A stretch of 64,000 bases of DNA. Origin: Butyrivibrio hungatei NK4A153 (GTDB lineage: Bacteria; Bacillota; Clostridia; Lachnospirales; Lachnospiraceae). A program made the position numbers and the translations under genes. The notes under the pieces are model-generated. The model was not told the DNA's origin. It was given only the letters and a program-made list of their open reading frames with translations, and did no database searches. Each line of letters opens with the position of its first letter. Position 1 is the stretch's first letter. Shown here piece after piece: positions 1 through 37,097 of this stretch. The DNA is taken from positions 62,001 through 126,000 of the forward strand of contig NZ_AUJY01000011.1 of assembly GCF_000424465.1 (NCBI RefSeq), written 5' to 3'.

Positions 1-293
1 ATGTGATTTTATGGACACTTAAGGATGAGCTTTCTGCTGAGGAGAAGGTTTCTGTGAAGCAGGGAATTAAGGAAGGACTCGAAGCATTAAAGGGCAAGGT
101 ACCCGGAATTGTTGAGATTAAGGTCAACATCAATGGACTTGCATCTTCAAACGCAGACCTTATGCTTGATTCAACATTTGAGAATGAGGATGCGCTTAAG
201 AACTACGCAACTCATCCTGAGCATGTTGCAGTTGCCGATACCAAGGTAAGACCTTACACGAAGATCAGAAGCTGCCTTGATTATGAGGTATGA
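1..293 (+). CDS. Dabb-type stress-responsive alpha/beta-barrel protein, 5' end cut by window
   Basis: The reading frame is open from the first bases and ends at TGA 291-293. The visible residues (VILWTLKDELSAEEK near the start, then NADLMLDSTFENEDALKNY, HPEHVAV and a YTKIRSCLDYEV end) match the small Dabb (stress-responsive A/B barrel) family, whose members of about 95-105 residues normally begin MVKHIVxW. So only the first few residues lie upstream, and the GTG at position 3 is an internal valine rather than the start. Dabb proteins form dimeric ferredoxin-like barrels; their biochemical role is mostly unknown. Family assignment is fairly sure, function is not. Confidence 0.8.
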   Translation, partial: VILWTLKDELSAEEKVSVKQGIKEGLEALKGKVPGIVEIKVNINGLASSNADLMLDSTFENEDALKNYATHPEHVAVADTKVRPYTKIRSCLDYEV

Positions 294-306
294 TATAAGT
301 AATAGG

Positions 307-534
307 GCATATAAAGGTTGATTGCGCTTTTCTTTTTATATGCTTTTGAACTTGATGGCGTTAGGGGTAGCATATAATAGTATGACGAGAAAATTATCTT
401 ATATGCTTTTTCGCTCGGTTTAATGAGTGAAATGCATATAAGAATGATTGCCTAATGTTGAATTATATGTTTTTCAATTCTAAACGAGGCGCAAAATGCA
501 TATAAATAATTATTGGAAGCATGTTGTTATATGT
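307..534. repeat. Tandem array of four inverted-repeat units, period 63-64 bp
   Basis: The 465-bp gap 294-758 holds no gene. In it GCATATAA occurs at 307, 370, 434 and 498, and its complement TTATATGC or TTATATGT at 336, 399, 463 and 527. Arm-to-arm distance is exactly 29 bp in all four units and units repeat every 63, 64 and 64 bp, while the 21-bp loops differ in sequence. Every right arm is followed by a run of four to six T. In unit 4 the stem extends outwards through GGCGCAAAA and TTTTGCGCC. The rest of the gap, 535-690, shows nothing recognisable. Confidence 0.85.
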
Positions 535-692
535 TTTTTGCGCCGATAAGAGGCTATGTCATTTTGTGCTTTCTTCACTTTGATTAAGAGCTTCTAAGTA
601 GCCGGCTGTTATTATGTCCAAAATTGCAGAGTTAGAACATGTATAGATGTACGAGATAGGATGGTAAATAATGAATAAAAAGTTAACTTTTT

Positions 693-758: not shown

Positions 759-1340
759 ATGAAAAAGAAATTTTTAACATTATGCGCTATCGTATCTATT
801 AGCGCTATGTCTATTGCTTGTGGGGATACAGCTACTGAGGGTGAAACAGCTGTTGCTGAGCTATCAGGTGTAGAAACTGATATTGATTTTGATGATGAGG
901 CAGATGCTGCGGAAGCAGAAGTGTCTGAAGAAGCGGATGATGCTGCATCTACCGATGGTAGTGGCGAAGAAGGAAAGTATTCTGTATTTACAGATGCCAG
1001 CGATGCTGAGGTAGAGGCATATGCACAGAAGGTTGTAGATGCAGTTCTTGCAAAAGACTGGGATTCTGTTGGCGATATGATTTCTTATCCTATCGGTTCT
1101 AAAGAGGATAACAACCTTTGCAATAATAAGGAAGAGTTTGTGGAATATGCCAAGAATACAGGCTTTGATGACAGCTATTTCAAATCACTTTCAGCATGGA
1201 AAGTTTCAGATTTATGGGGCAACTGGCAGGGTGGTTGTATTGATGATGGAAATATCTGGTTTAGTGGTGTAAATGATGAAGGATTCAAGATTCTTACATT
1301 GTTTGATTTACGCATGGGTGATGCTACAATAACAGATTAA
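759..1340 (+). CDS. Putative lipoprotein with acidic linker
   Basis: The protein is 193 residues. It opens with a typical lipoprotein signal: basic MKKK, a hydrophobic stretch, and lipobox SIAC with the modified Cys at residue 21. Residues about 25-75 are a low-complexity Glu/Asp/Ala-rich linker. The C-terminal 110 residues (EVEAYAQKVVDAVLAKDWD, then a Trp-rich part) look like a small compact domain, possibly NTF2/SnoaL-like, but I do not recognise the family. It should sit on the outer face of the cell membrane. It is a single-gene unit with its own ribosome site and a strong terminator just behind it. Confidence 0.75.
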   Translation: MKKKFLTLCAIVSISAMSIACGDTATEGETAVAELSGVETDIDFDDEADAAEAEVSEEADDAASTDGSGEEGKYSVFTDASDAEVEAYAQKVVDAVLAKDWDSVGDMISYPIGSKEDNNLCNNKEEFVEYAKNTGFDDSYFKSLSAWKVSDLWGNWQGGCIDDGNIWFSGVNDEGFKILTLFDLRMGDATITD

Positions 1341-30593: not shown

Positions 30594-31184
30594 ATGGAGA
30601 TTGTTTTGGAGAAGAAGAGAAAATTCAAGATTGTTAATGTTGTTTTTAGTATGACATTTTTTATGGTGTTAACAATTATGACGGGGTGTGGGAAGAAAGA
30701 GGATAGTGCTCTTTCTGCGTATAAGACAAGTATGTCGGAGTTTTACGACAAACTTGCGGAGTATGACAGTTCGATAAACGGTATAAATCCTGATTCCGAC
30801 TCTGCAAAAGAGGAACTTCTCGGTTACCTTGATGAGATGAATGAGGCTTATAAGGCTATGGGGGATCTCAAAGTTCCGAATGAATTTTCAGGTATTGCGG
30901 ATATTGCATCCGAGGCAAAAGATTATATGCAGATGGCGAATGAATGCTATCACAAAGCATATGACAATGAGTTTGATGAAGAGAGCTTATCTCTTGCAAG
31001 TCAGTATTACGAACGTGCAAATAAAAGAACCTTCATAATGTTGCAGGTTCTTCACGGGGAAAATCCCACGGATGAAGGCGTTTCGGTAACTACCGAAGAT
31101 GCATTCAAATTTGCCACTATTAGTGACGATGACGAAGCTGAAGAAACAGAAGAAGTTACAGAAGATACAGAAAGCACTGAGTAA
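30594..31184 (+). CDS. Putative lipoprotein at the end of the ATP synthase operon
   Basis: About 196 residues with an N-terminal hydrophobic segment and a lipobox-like MTGC (Cys32 from ATG 30594). A TTG at 30606 with GGAG six bases upstream would give a more standard signal length and is the better ribosome fit. The body is helical (SALSAYKTSMSEFYDKLAEYDSSI...) and the C-terminal 25 residues are Glu/Thr-rich. Family unknown to me. It directly abuts atpC but has no evident link to ATP synthase. Confidence 0.72.
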   Translation: MEIVLEKKRKFKIVNVVFSMTFFMVLTIMTGCGKKEDSALSAYKTSMSEFYDKLAEYDSSINGINPDSDSAKEELLGYLDEMNEAYKAMGDLKVPNEFSGIADIASEAKDYMQMANECYHKAYDNEFDEESLSLASQYYERANKRTFIMLQVLHGENPTDEGVSVTTEDAFKFATISDDDEAEETEEVTEDTESTE

Positions 31185-37032: not shown

Positions 37033-37097
37033 GCATATAATTGGTTAAAAAAAGGGTGCATATTTATCCTGAAATAATCAAAGGAGCAGAAAGTAAA

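Follow-up and report, generated by a model that had tools for sequence, protein, structure and literature searches.

Short extragenic inverted repeats of the REP/REPIN kind are dispersed over bacterial chromosomes, with a chromosomal nuclease-type gene (RAYT, TnpA-REP) beside a copy; RAYT is a Y1/HUH tyrosine enzyme that acts on hairpins. The arrays described here resemble these systems in being dispersed extragenic inverted repeats (five arrays with GCATATAA arms and several with TGACTAA arms in the genome under study) and in that a gene of the cognate type adjoins copies of them; they differ in that the protein has a predicted PD-(D/E)XK-type C-terminus and no match to transposase families in the six members searched, and in that the arrays are helix-phased, their loops are free and a genome has several protein/arm pairs. 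Vsr-like (EDxHD) homing endonucleases, such as I-Bth0305I, invite comparison through a C-terminal fold resemblance (in a weak model), a multi-copy gene, and the absence of one gene copy from the same site in a relative; we know of no such endonuclease with a phased array of its own or with solo arrays left behind. PDC-S68, a phage-defence candidate in PADLOC, has a matching C-terminal domain, but its models span about 1,200 positions and are matched at the C-terminal end alone. TIGR units of TIGR-Tas arrays are 36 nt long, with 8–12-nt repeats alternating with 9-nt spacers (up to 12), and the Tas proteins carry a Nop domain (PMC12045711). They resemble our loci in that the array adjoins a nuclease gene and has repeats that change from locus to locus, whereas GCATATAA arrays consist of units of at least 53 bp with loops of about 19–21 and gaps of at least 26 bp, and the Nop domain and RNA guide there contrast with DNA-helix quantisation here (PMC12045711). 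Within open-licence papers in PMC, no description of such arrays was found, and the class is apparently undescribed, with REPIN/RAYT, homing endonucleases and TIGR-Tas as the nearest kinds, from each of which it differs, or may differ, in a defining feature.

The window, that is, the whole stretch of 64,000 nucleotides from Butyrivibrio hungatei NK4A153 that was analysed, contains at 307–534 four units of the form GCATATAA-N21-TTATATG(C/T), as read directly from the letters (Table 1). A previous sequence-only reading had described them as inverted-repeat units with a constant arm offset of 29 bp and steps of 63–64 bp, and this is confirmed: the offset is 29 in all four units, the steps are 63, 64 and 64, the left arms are identical throughout, and the right arms vary in the last base alone (C/T). 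The pattern GCATATAA-N15..27-TTATATG matches the + strand of the window at 307, 370, 434 and 498 and, with two units matched from the − strand too, 6 times in total, against an expectation of 0.01 in window shuffles; none of 100 shuffles reached 6 matches or held two units 60–68 bp apart, so that the array withstood the shuffle test proposed for it. The 21-nt loops are as unconserved as had been stated (identity 0.286, compared with 0.284 from composition), and T runs are seen, again as stated, behind every right arm. No second run of inverted 7-mers like this one was found within the window. Isolated copies of the octamer lie at 30923, 37033, 45873, 49289, 49796 and 63634, with 2.9 ± 1.6 copies expected in shuffles of the whole window; none of these six is paired under GCATATAA-N15..27-TTATATG, and we therefore treat them as unrelated to the array, including the two, at 37033 and 63634, that had been linked to it.

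Table 1. Features of the window locus, the array-linked gene of the same genome, and arm words found upstream of homologs of that gene (window coordinates unless a contig is named).
Feature	Position	Strand	Description
Left flanking ORF	3..293	+	96 aa; outside the feature
Intergenic segment with array	294..667	.	missing at the same place in two relatives, G087 and G032
Unit 1	307..343	.	left arm 307-314 GCATATAA, right arm 336-343 TTATATGC
Unit 2	370..406	.	left arm 370-377, right arm 399-406 TTATATGC
Unit 3	434..470	.	left arm 434-441, right arm 463-470 TTATATGT
Unit 4	498..534	.	left arm 498-505, right arm 527-534 TTATATGT
Right flanking ORF	759..1340	+	193 aa; putative, lipoprotein-like by eye; outside the feature
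Own-genome array-linked gene	contig C7, 151046-151855 (= L171:5047-5856)		~270-aa protein, GCATATAA array upstream
Arm word CCCTACTA			53-bp steps, upstream of homologs
Arm word CGGCTACC			73.5-bp steps, upstream of homologs
Arm word TCCGACTG			53-bp steps, upstream of homologs
Arm word TACGTCCC			75-bp steps, upstream of homologs
Arm word CTACGTGA			64-bp steps, upstream of homologs
Arm word TTGACTAA			84-bp steps, upstream of homologs
Arm word GTATATAA			63/64- and 94-bp steps, upstream of homologs

Comparison of the locus among relatives, which had been suggested as a check, went against conservation at this site. G087 has 15 bp between the matching flanks, the match resuming at window position 678, and G032 has 23 bp, the match resuming at 668; G034 has another left neighbour and no array, and its match from 631 on leaves the right edge of the segment uncertain.

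Arrays of the same kind are present elsewhere. The own genome (G000; 3.37 Mb in 31 contigs) has 13 forward and 8 reverse matches to the array pattern and none to the reversed-pattern control; a covariance model of the unit finds there five arrays of 3–4 units, the window array included, along with a few weak isolated matches (E >0.3). The four besides the window array are at C5:208584, C6:1348, C7:98364 and C7:150758. Just past the C7:98k array and out of phase with it lies a near-perfect 38-bp hairpin with arm-like ends (L007:1834-1871), mostly present in G034 too. Of 79 genomes of the genus, 39 have model matches at E ≤0.3 and 6 have them at 1e-3 or better. A scan of GTDB species with the pattern GCATATAA-N20,21-TTATATG-N26,49-GCATATAA produced 86 stretches with 80 loci listed; among those listed are loci from Butyrivibrio, Pseudobutyrivibrio and other Lachnospiraceae, with six from P. 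xylanivorans DSM 14809, and arrays also occur outside this phylum, in Fibrobacter, some MAGs of which have four or five loci. A pattern with laxer arms, run family-wide, matched 10 of 397 genomes, several of these being single matches that look like chance, and the array pattern had no matches in viral contigs.

For the analysis of spacing, 40 of the 80 listed scan loci and 20 arrays from other searches were picked by hand, giving 60 arrays with 200 units, nearly all from Lachnospiraceae (with which the loosely named MAGs L200, L225 and L233 were counted) and Fibrobacter. Arrays of the hipB-operator type, isolated matches and duplicates of genomes already taken (e.g., L186, L204, L218 and L219) were left out by hand; the 60 arrays retain orthologous or near-duplicate pairs (L037/L198, L177/L178, L176/L241, L181/L245 and L187/L222, among others). 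In several Fibrobacter arrays (L177, L178, L181 and L245), the arms are extended by GGG/CCC and the steps reach about 105 bp, or 10 turns.

About 30 further scan matches, mostly from Bacteroidota, were set aside; where looked at, they are TTATATGC-N4-GCATATAA palindromes that recur every 40 bp or so. Among 26 such loci viewed, 25 were alike by eye and one (L240) was not; ORFs were listed for two. The palindromes (L183, L207 and others) precede a HipB-like HTH gene, and split HipA-like genes follow in the two loci with listed ORFs (gene names by eye); they are likely operators of hipBST-type operons. These operator arrays share with ours the octamer and the placement of several sites before a gene, and differ in the palindromic form, the short step and the HTH gene that follows.

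The unit steps of the 60 arrays fall at 62-65, 73-75, 82-86, 94-96, 104-106, 116, 126-128, 137-138, 169, 180 and 253 bp, with 195 bp as the exception. The best period over 140 steps is 10.55 bp (R 0.894); the 27 steps longer than the search constraint give 10.58 (R 0.83), and 24 distinct arm words upstream of homologs of the protein discussed below, with modal periods near 5, 6, 7 or 8 turns, give 10.52 (R 0.943). The left-to-right arm offset of 27–29 was fixed by the search and carries no evidential weight, and p-values are optimistic because arrays from related genomes are not independent. The whole-turn spacing noted for the window units, about six turns, is thus found across many arrays and species. 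The G013 array, with steps of 74, 74, 74, 75, 64, 64 and 64, changes by one helical turn within a single array; such changes are natural for DNA sites read on one face and hard to explain for RNA. Among the options offered by the sequence-only reading, these whole-turn steps favour an array on one helix face that a dimeric protein would bind.

Another of those options was a chain of RNA hairpins, which could represent terminators, small RNAs or a structured leader. It would account for the T runs behind the right arms and for the + strand folds, which beat those of shuffles (z -3.5 for the window array, -3.3 and -2.8 for two sister arrays), but inverted repeats fold well in any case, and no Rfam model matched the window at gathering score. 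We compared complementarity outside the arms within a unit with that obtained when right flanks were swapped inside the array (196 units of 56 arrays). At 1, 2 and 3 bases outside the arms, pairing is 0.62, 0.56 and 0.42 within the unit, compared with 0.59, 0.60 and 0.46 after swapping and 0.33, 0.45 and 0.27 for random partners. A slight excess over the same-array value, as hairpins would produce, appears at distance 1 (2.4 sd) and distance 7 (6 sd), but at the other six (2, 3, 4, 5, 6 and 8) units pair no better within themselves than with others of the same array, the values at 2, 3 and 6 being below the same-array ones. About 3 further bases of the arms are thus array-specific, and the arms of an array tend to share one longer form, a pattern that would fit reading by a protein. 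Hairpin RNA is thus disfavoured by quantisation at the B-DNA repeat and, less cleanly, by the flank test, and we consider it very improbable; the 10.55-bp period makes duplex DNA, read from one face, the most likely functional form of the array.

The history of the units differs between arrays. Loop identity within GCATATAA arrays ranges from 0.19 to 0.94 (45 arrays), and the earlier statement that the units do not stem from recent tandem duplication fits the window array, with its random-like loops, but some sister arrays have near-identical units. The arrays, we infer, lengthen by tandem duplication, and their loops then drift while the arms stay. If they were neutral, decayed repeats, regular only as a result of past tandem duplication, near-identical units would be expected in some arrays, as is the case; the window array and several others, on the other hand, combine near-random loops with intact arms, and the one-turn change inside the G013 array likewise argues against neutrality, which appears highly unlikely.

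Clustering of ORFs near 55 arrays showed that a family of ~270-aa proteins recurs beside arrays in both phyla; among the clusters listed, no other family was found within 200 bp of arrays in both. The gene lies 18–176 bp from the array in the seven loci measured; an eighth linked array, in L184, adjoins a gene cut by the locus end, and a wider tblastn search returned the identical 8 of 55. The array is upstream of the gene in seven of these eight loci and after it in L224; one of the eight belongs to the own genome, and the protein there is identical over 269 aa to that of Butyrivibrio hungatei XBD2006. In the remaining 47 arrays, no gene of the family is found in the fetched stretch, which extends more than 600 bp to both sides in 43 of the 55. 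Starting from the gene, we searched 560 bp upstream for inverted arms of any word and compared the result with 8 shuffles (homologs with at least 250 bp upstream, nine redundant loci skipped). Of 71 homologs, 61 had an array that exceeded every shuffle, as did 24 of 140 control genes, which cover a broader range of taxa; the excess was at least 3 in 32 of the 71 and in 2 of the 140. The 10 homologs with no array above shuffles include the gene on C3 of the own genome.

The protein itself is an orphan. For six members, no fitting family was found in Pfam or NCBIfam up to E 1, and no transposase or Nop family was among the matches at that threshold. The C-terminal half matches the C-terminus of the PADLOC models PDC-S68 (E 2e-22 to 2e-27 for the best model and three proteins) and, weakly, HEAT_CxxC_PDDEXK; the PADLOC models matched include a PD-(D/E)XK part. 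Across 75 homologs and the reference, E170, E216 and H217 are present in 76 of 76 sequences and D201 in 75. An AlphaFold2 model built from five sequences is weak (mean pLDDT 68.6, pTM 0.43); its C-terminus aligns with Bax1 (Z 8.0), the I-Bth0305I domain (PDB 3r3p; Z 7.8, rmsd 2.8, 86 aligned), Vsr (Z 6.8) and TnsA (5.8), a range that may be chance, with 3r3p and Vsr tied with unrelated rows. Its N-terminus is a helical hairpin with short strands. The C-terminus of this ~270-aa protein is predicted to be of the PD-(D/E)XK type and Vsr-like. That its nuclease-like domain recurs in the C-terminal ~120 positions of PDC-S68, itself a large candidate for phage defence, hints at a domain family of greater extent.

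An array beside a nuclease-like gene, with repeats fixed per locus and different between loci, would also be expected of an RNA-guided array of the TIGR-Tas kind in which the loops and gaps serve as guides, and the N-terminal coiled coil of the weak model weakly resembles TasH (Z 8.2). Units of at least 53 bp at whole turns and the lack of a Nop family in the six members searched speak against such an array, and we regard it as extremely improbable.

Foldseek gave no match at E 0.001 or better, a sequence search of the PDB a single irrelevant one (E 0.83), and PHROGs weak matches alone (best E 0.0016). The C-terminal part occurs in 10 viral contigs at 30–39% identity; a plasmid search gave no match, and a phage search one unannotated record (30% over 88% of the query). 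Within the genus, 69 of 79 genomes have homologs, up to 10 each, the own genome having 9; among Lachnospiraceae genomes, 82 of 250 have them, from 81 of 249 genera (about a third); in a phylum-wide sample, 7 of 299 genomes match, three from outside the family in the C-terminal part alone.

The arm words upstream of homologs differ between clades of the protein, and a word and its clade stay together in the other phylum. Protein identity and arm similarity are correlated (Mantel rho 0.37 over 40 homologs; p 0.0025, the lowest value attainable with 400 permutations), with rho 0.21 for pairs under 60% identity. The 40 were drawn from 75 homologs, with L260, L346, L347 and L351 (unresolved arms) dropped by hand; three of them (L292, L307 and L352) have modal steps of 43, 51 and 52, off whole turns or blurred by overlapping matches. 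Computed by protein half, the values (0.30 against 0.33) give no preference to the N-terminal half as the reading part. Three genomes, G087, G006 and G080, have good GCATATAA matches, and their best homologs score E 4e-90, 2e-67 and 3e-107, whereas the GCATATAA-linked homologs of the genus score far better, at E 1e-134 to 1e-138; two of the three genomes are 85–86% complete. The loops of the window array are, by eye, unlike those of the gene-linked GCATATAA array, which leaves recent copying of the one from the other unsupported.

These data bear on two further explanations. The arrays might serve as operators for some other protein that binds DNA, such as a repressor or a nucleoid protein, with the nuclease-like gene merely regulated or a passenger target: helical phasing fits any cooperative dimeric binder, the domain-wise Mantel values point to no DNA-reading part, and most arrays have no nuclease-like gene next door. 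We nevertheless think this unlikely, given that words differ between nuclease clades while word and clade go together across phyla, and that no second family emerged near arrays in both phyla among the clusters listed. Alternatively, they could be chromosome-organising or partition sites, that is, dispersed platforms for a nucleoid or segregation protein. Genomes do contain several arrays, mostly intergenic (5 of 55 overlap an ORF of at least 100 aa, of 402 aa in L227), and the orientation of flanking genes has no clear bias: among the 44 arrays (of 55) that have ORFs to the left and right, 27 pairs are tandem, 9 convergent and 8 divergent, with a background of 181/51/46. Against partition stand the coexistence in a genome of two or more arm families, each with gene-linked arrays of its own, the small share of genus genomes (the 6 of 79 above) with GCATATAA matches at E 1e-3 or better, and segments that are present or absent at single sites; such a role seems distinctly unlikely, and the partition- or origin-like site listed by the sequence-only reading is supported by nothing seen.

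A second array family in the own genome, TGACTAA-N20-TTAGTCA, is located at C1:2436, C2:128340, C4:98259, C5:104098, C6:40600 and C7:148865. The TGACTAA-arm pattern matches six of ten genomes searched: 16, 22 and 19 times in G000, G034 and G087, with no reversed-control match in these three, 6 times in G023, and once each in G032 and G064; the reversed control matches 1–2 times in three of the ten. The matches in G000, G034 and G087 are mostly grouped, often at steps of 73, 74 or 84 bp. Copies on C5 of G000 and C24 of G034 are gene-linked, and several more are solo. The six-unit array on C10 of G034 is homologous to the gene-linked C24 array (70% over 432 bp, within the arrays only) and has no homolog of the gene around it in a 5.5-kb stretch; no clean empty site was found for it, the own genome having other sequence there. 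On C7 of G000, members of the two families lie within 2 kb of each other (148865-149194 and 150758-150988), one on each side of a dapF-like gene (by eye); such proximity suggests that the families share insertion spots.

Arrays and gene segments alike have been gained and lost between species. Contig C3 of the own genome contains a 1.64-kb segment with a homolog that is replaced by 34 bp in G087; the array of this segment is weakly resolved, with TACGTGTA present three times at 63 bp, not above shuffles. In G034, the corresponding stretch is about 600 bp long and includes two GCATCRAA and two TTCGATGC sites of array-like appearance. These sites (L363:1123-1283, on C26 of G034) are intergenic, with steps of 125 and 62 bp, where the own genome has the homolog. 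No target duplication was recognised. The own genome has two arrays in common with G034, both embedded in blocks that are about 99% identical while the surroundings are about 83–98% identical, which suggests recent exchange or constraint; G087, too, shares the array before a trpE-like gene. Because both arrays are in such blocks, comparing arms with loops between the own genome and G034 is uninformative.

The window array has the inverted arms, the whole-turn steps and the word of the nuclease-linked array of its own genome. We consider it rather probable that it is a solo member of the helix-phased class, with the ~270-aa nuclease-like protein encoded elsewhere in the genome as its cognate reader. 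A dimer of this protein would read both inverted arms of one unit, and dimers on the same helix face would assemble cooperatively along the array. Placed upstream of the gene, an array might autoregulate it, stage its nuclease, or both; solo arrays would be spread copies, or remnants after gene loss, that still bind the protein. They could have spread by cutting and repair, in a homing-like manner, or by another route, or could have merely survived the loss of the gene. Binding, cleavage and mobility of the array/nuclease module are thus what we infer from the sequence patterns. The chances seem evenly balanced that this is a new kind of mobile module, in which paralogous Vsr-like nucleases would each read a phased half-site array of their own and form a filament on one face of the helix, while solo platforms spread across genomes and even phyla, as in Lachnospiraceae and Fibrobacter from the rumen, so that a genome would house several mutually blind nuclease/array populations.

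If this explanation is correct, an unannotated family of 270-aa proteins carries a ready-made code, the recognition word being repeated before each member's own gene. One could then test directly how such proteins recognise their DNA, how they assemble cooperatively on the helix and how selfish DNA spreads between genes; a set of intergenic repeats of gut and rumen bacteria that so far lack an explanation would also be accounted for.
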